A DNA stretch of 46,506 bases from Kofleriaceae bacterium (GTDB taxonomy: Bacteria; Myxococcota_A; Polyangia; Haliangiales; Haliangiaceae). The position numbers were made by a program, and so were the translations under genes. The notes below the pieces were generated by a model. That model had not been told where the DNA came from. It saw only the letters and a list, made by a program, of their open reading frames with translations, and did no database searches. The stretch is from contig JANTGM010000041.1 in assembly GCA_024762925.1 (NCBI GenBank), positions 1-46,506 on the forward strand, written 5' to 3'. Shown piece by piece: positions 1,622 to 25,043 of the stretch; positions within the stretch are counted from its first letter, which is position 1, and every line of letters begins with the position of its first letter.

Positions 1622-1906
1622 TCAATTAGACGCGTAGATGTCTACGCTCATGGTTTCGAGGCAGGCTTGGCCCTCGTCAATAAGCGCTCCGAGTTTTTGC
1701 GCCTCAGCCTTTGAGGGGTTGTCATCACGGAACTCCTGAACGAGTCGCCAAAACTCGCGACGTTGCTTGGTCGCACAGGAGTGCTCCTTACAGGAACAGG
1801 CGCTGGCCTTCCAGGCCTCAAGCTCTGTTGTTGCATCACGGCTACAGGCTGGCGCTAAGAGCACGGTAAACATGAGCAGCGAAGTAAGGCGTGTTGCGAC
1901 GTTCAT
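1622..1906 (-). CDS. Small Cys-rich lipoprotein
   Basis: A 94-residue protein with a hydrophobic N-terminus and a lipobox ending at Cys21 (LAPAC), so it is probably lipid-anchored. The mature part has four more cysteines (CSC, C, and C near the end) in a charged, helical context, which could form two disulfides. It is the last gene of the minus-strand lamin-tail/SNase/HhH operon, 53 bp after the barrel protein. I do not recognise a family. Its small size, Cys spacing and helical character resemble the 100-residue lipoprotein at 17859, but I see no clear homology between them. Confidence 0.75.
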   Translation of the reverse strand: MNVATRLTSLLMFTVLLAPACSRDATTELEAWKASACSCKEHSCATKQRREFWRLVQEFRDDNPSKAEAQKLGALIDEGQACLETMSVDIYASN

Positions 1907-1959
1907 CAGGAGTCCCCAAGTAGAAGAGGCCCATCAAACGCTGGTGTCGCACGGATCTT

Positions 1960-4119
1960 CTAGAAAAACGCCGTGTAGTCCAACCGCAGCCAGTGTTCGG
2001 GGTTTGGAGATCGGGTCTTGGTGCTGGTGCGATCGTCAAGGTGCATCAAGATGTCGTAGCGGAAACGCAGTTGATCCTTCTTGCGAAGTCGGTATGTCAG
2101 GTCCGCATAACTCCACCAGCTCTGTTCCAGGTATTCGTTATCAGAAATGTCCTCGTAGAGAAATCGGCTGCGAGCGCGGAGACGAAAGCGCGGATGTGGT
2201 TTGGTTGTGGCGATTGCCACTAGGGACAGGTCCTGGCGGTACTTCTCGGTGTAGCGCGCATCGTCCTGCAACTCGTGTTGGTACTGCAGGTCAAGCCACG
2301 TGGTCTTGCTATGAGTGTAGCGCAGTCGTCCCGTTGCTTGCATGCGCTGACCTGCACAGCTCACAGGGCCATTGGGGCCAATCTCATCAGGGTCATCCCC
2401 GATGTAACACTGATCGCGACCACTGCGCGCTAGGTCCTTGTCCTGGTACTGCGTCCACAAGCCCCACTGAAACTGGTCGCTGAGTTTCACATCGCCACGA
2501 ACAAAGGCCTGCACTTCGTTGATGGACTCAGAAGGCGAGTGCCAGTAGTCAAGACGTGTTCGGACGCGAAAGCGCTTGTCGAACTGACCTGTGTATTGAA
2601 CGCGGCCACCAATCTCATCTCGAGCGCGAAGCCCGTCGAATTCATCTGCTGCTGCGATTGGGCGTGCATGCGGGTTGGCAAAGTTCTCATCGTAATACCG
2701 AACCGATGTCTCAACTTCGTTCTTGTCCCATGCCGTGATCGCACGAGTAAGGGCACCTAGACCACCACCACCTGGCATGCCATCGAAGCTGCGACTCACC
2801 TCTGTGAGCACATCGGTGATGCCAAAGCCCTTCGCCGCGTTGATGCCAACCGCACCGAAATTTCCCCCGTAGGGCAGAGCCGACCACTCTTGAAAGTCGA
2901 GCTCCATACCCTCGGTAAGCCAGTCAATCGATGCGCCATACCCCGTTACGCCAATGTGAGCGCGCCGGTCGAGAGCGTAGGTGACATTGGCTCCAACAAT
3001 CTGCTCCGCATACATGTTGGGAAGCGTTTGAAACGAAAACTCCGAGGAGGGCGCAAGCGGATCTGCATTGGTACGATACACATCTGGGGCGCTGCACACC
3101 GGATCCTCGCTTCGGGGATCTTCGCAGACCGCGGGGTTGTAGAGTTCGTATTGGTAGATCGAGCGAGGCTGATACGAGGCAAATCCGTGAACCTCCAAAT
3201 TGCCACCACCGATCTCTACATTGCGGAGCGATGCAGCTATACCCGTGAGCCCATCACGAGATCGAAAGTCGGGTGTGATGTAGTTGTAGCCCGCTGACGC
3301 AGGGCAAGGGGCTGTGTCGAGCTCGCCCTGTGACTCTTTGCAATCGCGGGTAAGGTTGGTGCTGCGAAAGACATCAGCATCACCGTTGAACCCGTCGGGG
3401 TCTGTTTGGTCGGTATTGTCGAAGGTGAGTCGCTGGCCAAATCCGATGCGATAGGTACCGACGATGGCCGAAGCGTTCTCACCTTCCCAACGGACAAAGA
3501 GTTTGCGAAGGCGCACTGCATCGCTTGGCGCTTCGGCAGTAAGAGCTTGTCTTACGGGATCGTAGCGAACCTCGCCAACCTGAAGGCGTGTGTTGAGCGC
3601 AACGAGGCCAACAGATACGTTTTGCAGCCCTTGTGCCCGCAGCTGCAAGGCGGATGCGGGAAGCCCTGAGTCTTCGATGGAGTAGCTGGTCTGAAAGCGC
3701 GCTTTTCCTGCGAGGGGAAGTTCGGCTCTTGGGCCAGTGCCAACAATCAAGAAGGCTGCGATGGCTGCGAGTTTGTCAGCCCGTAGGATTCCCTGCGTCA
3801 CCAATGTGGCAGGATCTTCGATGCGCCCGACCTCATCGCGATAACTGAGAATGCCATCAACTTCTGCGTACGTTAGGTTGGGAAGGGTGTAGAGAATTTT
3901 TCGGCTGGCCTTGTTGATATCAACGCCGCGCTGTAGCAACTCAACGAGCGTCTCAAAGGTGACATCGTCGATTACACCCGCGACTTGCAGATCGTAGAGA
4001 TCGTCTTCGGTATTGATGTCTACGAAAACTTCGTATTGGTTACTGTGAGCAACTTGGCTACCAGCGGCGAGTGCCAAGCTGGCGCAAAGCGTGGCGATAA
4101 GAGTACGAGTATTTAGCAT
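1960..4119 (-). CDS. Outer-membrane beta-barrel with helix-hairpin-helix head
   Basis: A 719-residue protein with a signal peptide (about 1-26). Residues 67-128 contain a helix-hairpin-helix region (VDINKAS...LPNLTYAEVDGILSYR) like that of ComEA-type DNA-binding proteins. The rest (about 150-719) is made of alternating amphipathic strands rich in aromatic residues (for example RFRYDILMHL) and ends in Phe-Phe. A C-terminal Phe is the usual recognition signal for BAM-inserted outer-membrane barrels. The start codon overlaps the upstream SNase stop by 7 bp, so the two are translationally coupled. Inference: the HhH part sits in the periplasm or plugs the barrel and contacts DNA or a partner. Several Cys pairs in extracellular-type loops may form disulfides. 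The substrate is unknown. Confidence 0.85.
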   Translation of the reverse strand: MLNTRTLIATLCASLALAAGSQVAHSNQYEVFVDINTEDDLYDLQVAGVIDDVTFETLVELLQRGVDINKASRKILYTLPNLTYAEVDGILSYRDEVGRIEDPATLVTQGILRADKLAAIAAFLIVGTGPRAELPLAGKARFQTSYSIEDSGLPASALQLRAQGLQNVSVGLVALNTRLQVGEVRYDPVRQALTAEAPSDAVRLRKLFVRWEGENASAIVGTYRIGFGQRLTFDNTDQTDPDGFNGDADVFRSTNLTRDCKESQGELDTAPCPASAGYNYITPDFRSRDGLTGIAASLRNVEIGGGNLEVHGFASYQPRSIYQYELYNPAVCEDPRSEDPVCSAPDVYRTNADPLAPSSEFSFQTLPNMYAEQIVGANVTYALDRRAHIGVTGYGASIDWLTEGMELDFQEWSALPYGGNFGAVGINAAKGFGITDVLTEVSRSFDGMPGGGGLGALTRAITAWDKNEVETSVRYYDENFANPHARPIAAADEFDGLRARDEIGGRVQYTGQFDKRFRVRTRLDYWHSPSESINEVQAFVRGDVKLSDQFQWGLWTQYQDKDLARSGRDQCYIGDDPDEIGPNGPVSCAGQRMQATGRLRYTHSKTTWLDLQYQHELQDDARYTEKYRQDLSLVAIATTKPHPRFRLRARSRFLYEDISDNEYLEQSWWSYADLTYRLRKKDQLRFRYDILMHLDDRTSTKTRSPNPEHWLRLDYTAFF

Positions 4120-4598
4120 GGGTTGCTTTCACAGGCGCCCCAGAGCCCTCGTTCGTCTTGCTCAGCAAGATTCTCGAGAGTCTGAAACTCCGTTCTACGA
4201 TCAGCTCCGTTTGGGGGAATGTGCAGGACACAGGCAAACCCCCGCTCGACCAATAGCGTGTTGATTTCTCGATCACCTATTGAGACATAGGCCAGAAGGC
4301 GATCAAAGCGGTCGGTGCATTCTGTGTCATACGCGAGCGAGACGGTTTGGCCAGCGACCAAGTCTTCGTTGAACTGCTTGGCTTCGTCGGCGAAACACTC
4401 CGCGACTTCGGAGGAGTTGTGGCTGATCTCAGGCGTGTCGATCATGAGGTAGCGTATGGTTTCGCCACTCTCAAGCTCGATCGTATCCCCATCCAAAACA
4501 CGAGCGACCACACCTTCGCTTGGGCCACAGCGGTCGGGGTTGGGAACGCAGCTTGCCACCAACGATAGGGCGGCTCCGAGTATCCAGAGCGTCTTCAC
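4113..4598 (-). CDS. Thermonuclease-family (SNase-like) lipoprotein, short form
   Basis: A 161-residue protein with a GTG start preceded by AGGA. The lipobox ends at Cys17 (LVASC). The mature part is a single staphylococcal-nuclease-like OB-fold domain with the expected catalytic pattern: LDGDTI, then RYLMIDTPE (Arg, Asp, Thr, Glu), then DRFDRLLAYV (second Arg). The residues needed for Ca2+-dependent phosphodiester cleavage therefore appear intact, and it is probably an active nuclease held on the cell surface or in the periplasm. Six cysteines after the lipobox suggest disulfides and an extracytoplasmic fold. It lies 6 bp downstream of the triple lamin-tail gene and overlaps the barrel gene. 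Confidence 0.93.
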   Translation of the reverse strand: MKTLWILGAALSLVASCVPNPDRCGPSEGVVARVLDGDTIELESGETIRYLMIDTPEISHNSSEVAECFADEAKQFNEDLVAGQTVSLAYDTECTDRFDRLLAYVSIGDREINTLLVERGFACVLHIPPNGADRRTEFQTLENLAEQDERGLWGACESNPC

Positions 4599-4604
4599 GA
4601 AGTC

Positions 4605-6284
4605 CTATGGGCAGGTGCCATTGGGAAGTCCCGGCGTTCCCAGGTTGTCGCCAGGGCCGTATGGATCCGTTGCATCGCAAACAATGTCTGCAAGATCAAT
4701 CTGTCGTGCGACGCCTGATGACGTGTCGCCACCGAGGTAGTCGACTGAATCGAGCAGAGCATTATCGATCGCTACGAAGATATTAAAGCTGGTGCCAGCG
4801 CCGGTTTGTCCAAGACTGAAGCCACTTGGGAAGATGTTGGTTTCGGGAAGCCCGCCGTTAACGAGCGGATCGGTCTTGCGGGCAAAGAGAACATGGGTAT
4901 CGGCGTCAACGGCCACGCATTCAACCGAATCGATGGTAGTTGAGACAACAAGCGCCGGGTCGGATTCCTTTCCGAGTTGCAATCCGTTTAGGTCGGCCGC
5001 GGAAGCGAAGTGCACTTCAAACCACTCGCCATTGGTGTCCGAAACCACTGCAGGGTTAGGCATGAATTCTGTGATACGAACATCGCCAGCGAGTGGTGGG
5101 TTCGTGGGGCGAAGAGTGTCGCCATCCATGCACATGCCGCTTGTATCGCAGGGCAGGTTGGCCGCGCCGGGAGTTCCCAAGTCGCCATCGCCATATGGAG
5201 TTTTTCCATCACACCAGTTGGCTTCATCATCGTTTGCTGCCGCACTCTCAAGCGCAGGGTCAAGTGAGGTCGACTCGCCAGCACTCGAGCCCGTCCAGGT
5301 GATCGTGTCGATAACAGTCTCATCAACCCCCACAAAAAGTGTCGCGCCACCATTGCTGAGGCCAAAGCTAAACGTGAAGTCGGGAGCAGGAAGGCCTCCG
5401 TTGACGCTTGCGTCGGTTGAACGGGCAAAGAGCAAACGGTCGCCAGGTGCCACGGCGAGGCAGTTTTCGTCAGTGAGATTGATCTTCGGTGATTCAGGAT
5501 CGTTTCCAGCAACGACTCCGTTTAGATCAAAGCTGCCTGTCGCAACGAGCTCGAACCACTCGCCAACTTCATCGCCAACAGCATCGGGGTTTGGCATGAA
5601 TTCGGAGAACACGAGATCCCCAACCTCGGGCTGTATAACGTCTCTCTCCGTGCCATTGTCGAGGCAGGTGGTTTGTACGACGATGCTGCACGGTTCGTTT
5701 GCAACGCCCGGTGATCCGTAAGACCCCGTCGCGTATTCGGTCGTCGCAGGACAGAAGTTTTCTATTGAGTCATTCGCAAGGTGGTCGGGAGTGATGTTGC
5801 CATCGAGTCCCTGAGAGTGGCCGCTTACAGCTTCGCCATAGAAGAGGTGATCCACTTCAACATCACCACAACGCAGCCCAAGCTGCCCACCACTATTCGT
5901 CATGCCGCCGAGATCATCGGCATAGCCGTATCCAATGTACTCAGCGCGAAACTCGGGCAGCACTCCACCTAGGGCGAGGTACTCGCCAGCTTCGATGATG
6001 GTCTCGCTCATTACATGCGTCTTGGCGCTGCTGCCATCAACCGATGCCTTCTCAAGGACAAGCCCTGTTAGGTCAATGGCGCTGCCAGTGGCGTTGTAGA
6101 TCTCAAAGAACTCGTTGCCATCGTCATCGCCTTCCGGGTTGGCCATCACTTCGGTAATCACCAAGTCGCCAGTGAGAAGCGCCGCGGTGCAGTCCTGTTC
6201 GCCGTCAATCGGACCATCGTCTCCCGGTCCACAAGCTGTGAGAAGGAAAGCGCTGGCGAGTGCGAGTACGGGTTTTGAGTGCAT
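4605..6284 (-). CDS. Lipoprotein with three lamin-tail-like domains
   Basis: A 559-residue lipoprotein (lipobox LLTAC, Cys18) built from three tandem copies of about 160 residues, at roughly 39-200, 222-382 and 400-559. Each opens with a GDLVITEVM/GDVRITEFMPNP strand, continues with an E/EWFE strand and D-L-x-G, and closes with a G-(T/S)PG-x-x-N-x-x-C motif. This is the lamin-tail domain (LTD) pattern, an immunoglobulin-like fold found in many secreted bacterial proteins, often beside nucleases. Copies 2 and 3 resemble each other more than copy 1, suggesting stepwise duplication. Asp/Glu-rich loops suggest Ca2+ binding. It probably acts as a surface adhesin or tether for the co-encoded nucleases (inference). 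Confidence 0.88.
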   Translation of the reverse strand: MHSKPVLALASAFLLTACGPGDDGPIDGEQDCTAALLTGDLVITEVMANPEGDDDGNEFFEIYNATGSAIDLTGLVLEKASVDGSSAKTHVMSETIIEAGEYLALGGVLPEFRAEYIGYGYADDLGGMTNSGGQLGLRCGDVEVDHLFYGEAVSGHSQGLDGNITPDHLANDSIENFCPATTEYATGSYGSPGVANEPCSIVVQTTCLDNGTERDVIQPEVGDLVFSEFMPNPDAVGDEVGEWFELVATGSFDLNGVVAGNDPESPKINLTDENCLAVAPGDRLLFARSTDASVNGGLPAPDFTFSFGLSNGGATLFVGVDETVIDTITWTGSSAGESTSLDPALESAAANDDEANWCDGKTPYGDGDLGTPGAANLPCDTSGMCMDGDTLRPTNPPLAGDVRITEFMPNPAVVSDTNGEWFEVHFASAADLNGLQLGKESDPALVVSTTIDSVECVAVDADTHVLFARKTDPLVNGGLPETNIFPSGFSLGQTGAGTSFNIFVAIDNALLDSVDYLGGDTSSGVARQIDLADIVCDATDPYGPGDNLGTPGLPNGTCP

Positions 6285-6335
6285 AGGGAATGGCCTGTTT
6301 CGGCAGCGAGGTTTGGCAGGATAGGGGAGCTTGAG

Positions 6336-7487
6336 TTACGGAGCGTTGGAGGCGGAAGCGGCTGGCTCGGCGTCGGTCGCTGGTGCTGGTGGCTCCAATG
6401 GCGTTTCCGTGAGGGGGAGCCGCGAGCCTTTGACTTGGGATGGCAAGCTCACAAGGATCTGTAGGACCTGCTTATTATTGTACTTGTTCTTATATTTGTT
6501 AACGACGCCCGTCACAGCGACAAACTCACCCTTGTAGCGGGTGATTCCCGAACTCGCGAATACATCGCTGTCGAAGAAGACCGCCGGAAAATCTTTGAAG
6601 AGGCGTCTACTTAGGCGGGCCTGACTTGGACCGCTATCACCACGTCGGATGTCACCAACCGTGGCCAAGATTGTGACCTCTTCGCCAAGCTTCTCTTCAA
6701 TCCTGCGCAAGGCGTCCCAGTTTGTCAGCACGATGTAGTCATCGCGTTCAGCAGCTTTCCGTTCAAAATCCAAAATGAAATCGGCGCGCGCATCCCACCA
6801 CGTTCGACGAATTGCGTAGTCGGGATAACACTGACAACCTGGCTTCCAGATTCCGAGTTGCTTCTCTTTGGCTTCCTTCTCCGCTTGCACAAAGTCGGGA
6901 TGAAAGCGTCGCGAATAGCCATACTTGCTGAAGTATGGAGTCATGCCGGCTCGCACCGCTTCGACATTGTAGTTGACCCAGGCGCCGTTCTTTTGAACAA
7001 AGACGTAGGCGAGGTAGCGACCATAACGGCCACGGATTTCTTTTGGATGGTCGCGCTCAAGGCGAACTGTCGTTGTTCCTGCAAAGAAGTTCTTGGCCCA
7101 CTTCTTTGCTTCTTCGCCAAGTGGCGTCGCTGCCTTGGCAGGACGAACGCTGTCGCCCTTCTTGTTCTTCAGGTAGGTGTCAAAGTCCGAGTCAGATGCT
7201 CGTCGATCTGCATCGCGCTTGTAGGTCTCTTCGGTGTCAATTGCCAGCAGACGGAGACTGGTCTCAAGCCCGCGTACTTTGATTGTGTCGCCATCGACGA
7301 TTGCGTTTGCAGGAAGGCTGAACTCTCCAATGACTAGGCCTGGTGCTTCGAGACGGCTAAGTGAACTCTGAACTTGCTTGCGATTGTAGCGGCGGGTTTG
7401 GCTTGAAGAACCGCAGGCGCCAAGTACTGCGCTACTAAGAAGAACACCTATAGATGCGAGGGCGAGGTTCTTGACTACTCGGCGCAT
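6336..7487 (-). CDS. SNase-like lipoprotein with C-terminal OB-like extension
   Basis: The ATG at 7487 is preferred because a GAGGAGA Shine-Dalgarno precedes it and it begins a good signal peptide. An in-frame start at 7562 would only add a basic leader. The 383-residue product has a lipobox at Cys25 (LGAC) and an SNase domain (about 50-215) with VDGDT, LRLLAIDTEE and GRYGRYLAYV, so the catalytic Asp/Arg/Glu/Arg set is retained. A tryptophan-rich linker leads to a second beta-rich segment (about 270-350, EEVTILATVGDI to VLQILVSLP) that looks like an OB fold, a typical nucleic-acid-binding module. The C-terminal tail is Pro/Ala-rich. The start overlaps the upstream lamin-tail gene by 13 bp. 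Probably a surface nuclease. Confidence 0.9.
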   Translation of the reverse strand: MRRVVKNLALASIGVLLSSAVLGACGSSSQTRRYNRKQVQSSLSRLEAPGLVIGEFSLPANAIVDGDTIKVRGLETSLRLLAIDTEETYKRDADRRASDSDFDTYLKNKKGDSVRPAKAATPLGEEAKKWAKNFFAGTTTVRLERDHPKEIRGRYGRYLAYVFVQKNGAWVNYNVEAVRAGMTPYFSKYGYSRRFHPDFVQAEKEAKEKQLGIWKPGCQCYPDYAIRRTWWDARADFILDFERKAAERDDYIVLTNWDALRRIEEKLGEEVTILATVGDIRRGDSGPSQARLSRRLFKDFPAVFFDSDVFASSGITRYKGEFVAVTGVVNKYKNKYNNKQVLQILVSLPSQVKGSRLPLTETPLEPPAPATDAEPAASASNAP

Positions 7488-8149
7488 GACGGATTCTCCT
7501 CTTGTGGCGTTCCGCGAACACCTTTTTGTTCTGTCTCTTCGTCTTCCAAGTTGTCCACGCACCAGTTGACTTCATCATCATTGGCTTCTGCGGTGGGCGG
7601 GGAGATATCGCCGTTGAGAGTGAGGCTGCCTTTCGTTGGCAAGTTGCGATACAAAGCGAGATCGATGAACTCTCCACAAGAAGTGATTTCGACGGCGGCG
7701 CTGTCAAAGAGCTTGCCCCCAGAACCATCGATGTCACCGATATCACCTAGGTAGCCATAGTCGACGTGCTCAGGTTCCGCACCTGGGAGCTGCTTGCCAA
7801 AGACCGCATAGCCGCCCGGCTCAAGATTCACCGCGGTGCGAACAAACATCTTGAGTTTGGACGAGCCGTCAAGTTTTGTGAAACTCACGGACAAACCACT
7901 GAGGTCGATGGTTCGACTTGACGCGTTGTAAACCTCGATCCATTCCCCGTATTGGTCCTCACCTGTTTGCGGTCCATGCACCTCGGTCACGACAAGCTCG
8001 CCAGCGGATATGGCCGGACACGGAATGTCGAGTGGCTCGTGAGAACACCCAGAGAGCACGCTCAAAGAGCAAGCTGCAAGAAACGTCAGTGCAGTACAGT
8101 CGCCAAACACGTTAGCCAAATGTAGCGAATCTTGACGCTTCATGGGCAC
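7475..8149 (-). CDS. Lipoprotein with single lamin-tail-like domain
   Basis: First gene of the surface operon. It starts at GTG 8149 or ATG 8143 and has a hydrophobic leader with a lipobox-like LSGC about 33 residues in. The mature part carries one lamin-tail-like domain: GELVVTEVHGP, GEWIEVYNASSRTIDLSGLSV, then an EPGGYAVFGK strand and a DDEVNWCVDN segment matching the DDEANWCDG stretch in repeat 2 of the 559-residue protein. It is therefore a paralogue of that protein. It overlaps the SNase gene by 13 bp. No strong Shine-Dalgarno sequence is seen at either start. Confidence 0.85.
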   Translation of the reverse strand: MPMKRQDSLHLANVFGDCTALTFLAACSLSVLSGCSHEPLDIPCPAISAGELVVTEVHGPQTGEDQYGEWIEVYNASSRTIDLSGLSVSFTKLDGSSKLKMFVRTAVNLEPGGYAVFGKQLPGAEPEHVDYGYLGDIGDIDGSGGKLFDSAAVEITSCGEFIDLALYRNLPTKGSLTLNGDISPPTAEANDDEVNWCVDNLEDEETEQKGVRGTPQEENPSCAE

Positions 8150-24590: not shown

Positions 24591-25043
24591 CTACTGCAAG
24601 GTACTCGCGCCTTTCACGCTGAGGTAGGGGCGGAGCTTCTTGATTGTCTTGGCGCCAAAGCCTTTTACTCGGCGAAGGTCCACGACTCGCTTGAACTTGC
24701 CGTGTTGCGCTCGCCAATTTACGATTCGATCGGCCTTCTTCGGCCCAATGCCTGGCAGCTTCATCAAGTCAGCTATAGACGCTGTATTGAGATTGAGAGT
24801 GCCAGATAGCCCACTCGCGCTGCTCTTCGTCTTTGGAACGACAGGCACTTTCGAGGCTGGAGCTTCCGCCACGCGGGCAGCGCGATTTGGGACCACGCTT
24901 AGCGCAGGCTGGGCGTCATCGAAGTCGAGCTGAGTTCGCTCAGTGGGAGCCTCGGCAAAGGCCATGGTCACTGCCGCGATGAGCGCCGTAAAGGCAGACA
25001 GCGAAAGAAAGCGGCGCAGGTTGTTCTTGGTTTTGGTTGTCAT
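24591..25043 (-). CDS. ComEA-like helix-hairpin-helix protein
   Basis: A 150-residue protein with an N-terminal hydrophobic segment (about 12-30, LSLSAFTALIAAVTMAFAEA; signal peptide or anchor). After a low-complexity linker comes the canonical ComEA C-terminal module, LNLNTASIADLMKLPGIGPKKADRIVNWR...GFGAKTIKKLRPYL, with two HhH hairpins. ComEA binds incoming double-stranded DNA in the periplasm during transformation. No comEC or comF is nearby. AAGGA lies about 8 nt before the ATG. It is convergent with the kinase gene. Confidence 0.92.
   Translation of the reverse strand: MTTKTKNNLRRFLSLSAFTALIAAVTMAFAEAPTERTQLDFDDAQPALSVVPNRAARVAEAPASKVPVVPKTKSSASGLSGTLNLNTASIADLMKLPGIGPKKADRIVNWRAQHGKFKRVVDLRRVKGFGAKTIKKLRPYLSVKGASTLQ

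Follow-up and report, generated by a model that had tools for sequence, protein, structure and literature searches.

The locus described here raises the question of what a bacterium might do with a compact run of genes whose predicted products combine SNase-type nucleases, lamin-tail domains (LTDs) and a large outer-membrane barrel. The window, that is, the whole stretch of DNA analysed (46,506 nucleotides), lies on contig C41 of a 6.8-Mb genome that is 98% complete. A preliminary description had listed six consecutive minus-strand genes in positions 1622-8149; all six open reading frames are present, with overlaps or gaps of 6-53 bp. They follow in the order of transcription (ltd1, snB, ltd3, snA, barrel and the gene for a 94-aa Cys-rich lipoprotein), the two parts of the barrel protein being listed below its gene:

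7475-8149, minus strand: ltd1, first gene, GTG start; predicted 224-aa LTD lipoprotein with lipobox LSGC, pI 4.1 (Pfam LTD, E 1.7e-9)
6336-7487, minus strand: snB; predicted 383-aa SNase lipoprotein with lipobox LGAC and a C-terminal OB-like domain; 13-nt overlap with ltd1
4605-6284, minus strand: ltd3; predicted 559-aa lipoprotein with lipobox LTAC and three LTDs (Pfam, three stretches), pI 4.05
4113-4598, minus strand: snA, GTG start, 6 bp after ltd3; predicted 161-aa SNase lipoprotein with lipobox VASC
1960-4119, minus strand: barrel; predicted 719-aa outer-membrane beta-barrel with an N-terminal HhH domain; 7-nt overlap with snA
3748-4008, minus strand: N-terminal helical domain of the barrel protein, residues 38-124, which includes the HhH with LPNLTYAEVD
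1966-3711, minus strand: residues 137-718 of the barrel protein, its beta-barrel part, with about 24 transmembrane strands as assigned by DSSP in the AlphaFold model
1622-1906, minus strand: predicted Cys-rich lipoprotein of 94 aa, last gene; homologue only in genome G002, of the same genus

The start of snB is most likely the ATG at 7487 and not position 7562. Export signals and lipoboxes were called by pattern reading alone, with no signal predictor; read in this way, every protein carries an export signal, as previously described, and the lipoproteins of the window have lipobox-like motifs, none of which is followed by an Asp at +2. The genes are flanked by a divergent EamA-type transporter gene (8215, plus strand) and by a convergent sensor-kinase gene (ending at 1613, plus strand), both named from our own reading of the sequences. 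Scans for sigma-70 promoters and terminators gave sites no more numerous than in shuffled sequences, and an Rfam search returned no match. A 16-bp tandem repeat of 1.9 copies is found at 1599-1629, where the ends of the unit and of the sensor-kinase gene converge.

Of 56 relatives, 30 have a barrel gene, as have 72 of the 373 Myxococcota genomes searched. An all-species scan with strict motifs gave 69 named loci, all of them consistent with Myxococcota, a few of the records being vaguely titled; the hosts include the cultured Plesiocystis pacifica, Enhygromyxa salina and Paraliomyxa miuraensis, and among named relatives the barrel is closest (68% identity) to that of a Kofleriaceae MAG. A search of plasmids for the barrel gave no match. 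Across families and orders of the phylum the barrels are typically 40-50% identical and gene order is kept. We sampled 44 loci of close relatives in which the upstream flank of the barrel spans 6 kb or more. The barrel, an LTD gene and at least one SNase gene lie on one strand in 40 of them; the exact order LTD-snB-LTD-snA-BARREL is found in 26, two others differ by an extra LTD gene (28 canonical loci in all), and four have the order BARREL-snB-LTD-snA. The ltd1 gene occupies the same position in most close relatives. Moreover, the SNase/OB gene is nearly always single-copy, and yet dozens of genomes have it no more than a few kb from the barrel, which excludes chance clustering.

Conservation of the set as first described, with six genes, holds for five. 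A homologue of the 94-aa Cys-rich gene was found only within the same genus (at L033), so that the unit proper consists of five genes; the small lipoprotein, ruled out as a core part, is probably an accessory of this genus only. The flanking genes are likewise ruled out as further parts, since no neighbour outside the unit is generally conserved; the most widespread, a universal-stress gene after the barrel, is confined to one subgroup. No dedicated nucleotide transporter or nucleotidase was found to be conserved beside the unit.

The assignment of two LTD and two SNase lipoproteins is borne out by Pfam matches for all four. The SNase family (PF00565) matches snA with E 8.3e-20 and snB with E 9.2e-15, both above the cut-off, and the LTD family (PF00932; cut-off 34.3 bits) matches ltd1 with 38.5 bits and ltd3 with 68.2 bits. 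The SNase domain of snB (AlphaFold pLDDT 87.7) superimposes on staphylococcal nuclease with Z 16 and an rmsd of 2.1 over 133 residues. Residues D65, D67, T68, R79, D84, E87 and R157 of snB are invariant in 45 homologues, as are DGDT, R49, E57 and R100 of snA in 39, and the catalytic set as a whole (DGDT, Arg, DTxE, Arg) varies little or not at all in either group. The catalytic residues are intact, in keeping with the earlier claim, and both proteins are predicted to be active nucleases. SNases require calcium. The C-terminal domain of snB, in a confident AlphaFold model, shows the order b-b-b-a-b-b, which is that of OB-fold strands and would fit the OB-like extension described before; Pfam OB-fold models, searched against the domain within the whole protein, match weakly, in 7 and 3 of the 45 homologues. 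The pI of snB is 9.4 here with a median of 7.6 among relatives, so that the protein is not basic in all; snA is acidic. This genome has only three SNase genes, two of them in the unit. In genomes of group f30 (L158-L162), and in a single genome from a different family (L163), an snB-like SNase gene has neither a barrel nor an LTD gene as its neighbour.

That the barrel might be spurious is refuted by its AlphaFold model (58 sequences; pLDDT 90.1, pTM 0.87), in which helices at residues 38-124 precede about 24 long strands spanning 137 to 718. The barrel part of this protein matches no Pfam or NCBIfam family. Even-stranded outer-membrane barrels have both ends on the periplasmic side, so that the HhH domain is expected on the side of the periplasm or in the lumen.

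The head of the barrel protein had been described as a DNA-type HhH. Its fold is that of an HhH: HHH_3 matches this protein with E 4.3e-6 (27.2 bits against a cut-off of 27) and is matched by 57 of the 58 barrel homologues. The DNA-binding type, however, was rejected on its residues and its charge. The hairpin reads LPNLTYAEVD, as against LPGIGPKKAD in ComEA, and in most of the 58 homologues it is LPNLTY followed by A, E or D and then by D or E; both GxG hairpins and the equivalents of K62 and K63 (V. cholerae ComEA numbering) are missing. A canonical ComEA-like protein encoded in the same window (24591-25043, minus strand; 150 aa, basic, with GIGPKK and GFG hairpins) serves as an internal control: over the matched stretch its net charge is +12, that of the barrel protein is -1, and the mean of the barrel family over residues 64-126 is -3.5. 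In distant barrels the lysine pair is likewise absent and the first glycine is kept in some, the motif finder having missed the HhH of several of these sequences. In V. cholerae ComEA, K63A lowers transformation about 250-fold, K63E or the double change K62/63A abolishes it, and perturbing the GIG hairpin also stops DNA uptake (PMC3879209). By these determinants the head is an HhH in fold and, as judged from its sequence, non-DNA-binding. It shares with ComEA the HHH_3 domain, the predicted periplasmic side and a possible setting of DNA uptake, but is acidic, lacks the hairpin glycines and the lysines, and is fused to a barrel (PMC3879209). Docking to another protein is a likelier role for it than DNA binding. 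The competence protein RA0C_RS02645 of Riemerella (PMC8459023) has an HhH at 236-301 and is predicted to be periplasmic; compared by description only, it is not clearly of the same architecture.

A similar picture emerges for the LTD proteins. Both ltd1 and ltd3, the latter with three LTD matches (E 9.7e-19), have a pI of about 4, which argues against simple capture of DNA, and the LTD of ExeM is dispensable for DNA degradation (PMC6085458). The view of the LTD and HhH modules as DNA-binding parts is thus not upheld. Homologues of ltd3 (e.g., L062, L067 and L123) differ in length from clade to clade, with extremes of about 525 and 950 aa, probably through variation in the number of LTD copies.

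We took 24 loci with distant barrels (E about 1e-17 to 1e-62) from other families of the phylum. An LTD gene lies beside the barrel in 19 of them. The nuclease is an SNase in eight, a single-HKD PLD in six and a ComEC-type MBL in five, L168 having both of the latter in the order PLD-BARREL-LTD-MBL; five barrels have no partner, three of these at contig ends. Where it replaces the SNases, the gene for a predicted PLD lipoprotein lies directly upstream of the barrel (L166, L168, L169, L171, L173 and L175), and the MBL gene lies directly downstream of the LTD gene (L177, 13017-14459; L195, 4745-6280; L196, 1034-2605; L197, 4201-5649; L168, 5241-6983). The best matches of the PLD partner are endonuclease Nuc (E 1e-18) and NucT, the latter implicated in purine salvage and transformation (PMC5714352). 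The MBL partner, predicted to be exported, best matches ComEC/Rec2 (E 2e-17) in the nuclease domain of ComEC; this beta-lactamase-like domain is a characterised nuclease, aided by an OB fold (PMC12455585). Both kinds of copy, SNase-type and PLD-type, are present once in genome G262 and once in genome G276. In a barrel tree (quick method, midpoint root) the MBL loci form one clade with support 100, nested with the PLD loci in a branch that also has SNase loci. The exchanged genes abut their neighbours on the same strand and recur across several families; the pattern was spotted on viewing the neighbours and was not a preset test. That three unrelated nuclease folds are found around one conserved core indicates nucleic-acid processing, and the link to nucleic-acid cleavage suggested by the preliminary description is strengthened by it. 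L205 has a PLD gene with two HKD motifs near the unit, which was disregarded because it does not resemble the single-HKD nuclease. Near the barrel, the MBL clade also has a gene for an exported protein of about 850 aa with a weak AMMECR1 match (L195, 11701-14247; L177, 4954-7488; L196, 6654-9212).

The conserved unit, the barrel, the intact catalytic residues and the exchange of nucleases are computed observations, from which we infer co-assembly, surface location, activity, direction of transport and a nutritional purpose, as follows. The core would consist of the barrel of about 24 strands, with its periplasmic or lumenal HhH-type helical domain, and the multi-LTD lipoprotein; to it each lineage would add at least one exported nuclease, and in the present case two SNase lipoproteins, of which one has an OB-like domain. 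The lipoproteins would most likely assemble around the barrel at the outer membrane, the nucleases would cleave extracellular DNA or RNA, and the fragments would pass through the barrel into the periplasm for use as nutrients. That nucleic acid is the substrate seems to us very probable. The reading as a whole, in which nucleases assembled at the surface around an outer-membrane channel scavenge nucleic acids for nutrition, is about as likely to be right as wrong, and that the barrel is the route of import falls slightly short of this. More tentatively still, the unit may represent a new outer-membrane machine for nucleic-acid import, independent of type IV pili and SusCD, in which a dedicated barrel with an LTD scaffold, widespread in Myxococcota, would import the fragments released by plug-in nucleases of unrelated folds. 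The preference for nutrition over transformation or defence is a guess from the presence of two nucleases per unit and from the role of NucT in purine salvage (PMC5714352). Against scavenging stand the missing DNA-binding residues of the HhH and the acidity of the LTD proteins and of snA, which leave snB as the only obvious agent of capture.

The main rival to an import channel is a platform for secretion or anchoring, by which the barrel would place the LTD and nuclease lipoproteins on the surface for degradation of DNA outside the cell (in matrix remodelling, in defence against foreign DNA or in attack on prey DNA), with nothing imported. We regard this as unlikely, yet serious, as the size and fold of the modelled barrel would suit secretion or anchoring as well as uptake and its best structural matches are export ushers: the closest solved barrels are FimD/PapC, with Z about 15 over about 370 residues. 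Also in line with a platform, the adjoining genes encode proteins with predicted export signals, mostly with lipoboxes, and the acidic N-terminal domain suits protein docking. However, the identity to ushers is 9-11%, other large barrels follow closely (Z 13-14), and usher families are absent from the Pfam matches (E 0.01) of all 58 barrel homologues. Moreover, the lumen is estimated to be net positive in 58 of 58 homologues, by a crude inside/outside assignment of strands with no control set, which speaks for the import channel.

A different possibility, and an improbable one, is that the barrel and LTD core serves another substrate, such as protein, polysaccharide or lipid, the nucleases being passengers or unrelated in purpose. 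The lack of a DNA-binding signature in the LTD and HhH modules would agree with this, as would the lipid enzymes in the PLD superfamily. Nevertheless, three unrelated nuclease families adjoin the same core, and the PLD partner is of the single-HKD nuclease type and the MBL partner of the ComEC type. Slightly less probable again is that the unit forms the outer-membrane entry step of natural transformation and hands DNA to ComEA and ComEC. Both are encoded in this genome, and the alternative nucleases are of competence type (NucT, ComEC domain); yet the ComEA is an ordinary one encoded separately, two nucleases per unit fit degradation better than the import of long DNA, and most of the 373 Myxococcota genomes searched gave no unit. 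Lastly, a chance cluster or an oddity of one genus, which describes the 94-aa gene and nothing more, is refuted for the five-gene unit by the order kept across families and orders and can practically be dismissed.

Several known systems share parts with the scavenging complex that we favour. ExeM of Shewanella oneidensis and Xds of Vibrio cholerae (PMC6085458) likewise combine an LTD, an oligonucleotide-binding-like domain and a nuclease in an exported form linked to extracellular DNA, but each is a single protein with an EEP nuclease, with neither barrel nor SNase. NucT of Helicobacter pylori (PMC5714352), which is located at the cell envelope, and endonuclease Nuc are single-HKD PLD nucleases, to which the PLD partner is most similar; the NucT paper describes no accompanying barrel or LTD protein, and the nucleases of the unit in the window are SNases. 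The nuclease domain and OB fold of ComEC (PMC12455585) are matched by the MBL partner, and their pairing parallels snB; unlike ComEC, the partner has no channel of that kind and is predicted to be exported. Secreted DNases with HhH or LTD modules (PMC4486849) and the PADLOC candidate 'SNc+LTD' (C3a212) use the same domain vocabulary as the unit, in single fused proteins with no outer-membrane barrel. In PADLOC only the SNase part matches that candidate, and the barrel and LTD proteins match no model. FimD/PapC ushers, with their large fold of about 24 strands, give the best structural match to the modelled barrel; however, none of the 58 barrel homologues matches an usher family in Pfam, and the unit has no chaperone or pilin gene. 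Our search of the open-access literature yielded no account of an outer-membrane barrel accompanied by LTD and nuclease genes. Hence the separate pieces are known from cell-envelope nuclease systems and the combination is undescribed in open-access papers, much as the preliminary description had stated.

The passage of nucleic acids, or of pieces of them, across the outer membrane is poorly understood where no type IV pilus takes part, and the unit offers a conserved and testable candidate for a channel with its nucleases, in cultured hosts. The exchange of three unrelated nuclease folds is functional evidence such as one seldom has for an unstudied system. The unit would also place the bacterial LTD, a domain of unclear role, in a definite context next to an outer-membrane channel; degraders of extracellular DNA with an LTD nuclease protein have been reported (PMC8289736). 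Further LTD proteins are encoded elsewhere in this genome (G000), on contigs C49, C83, C12, C200 and C40, one of them in a frame of 1259 aa.
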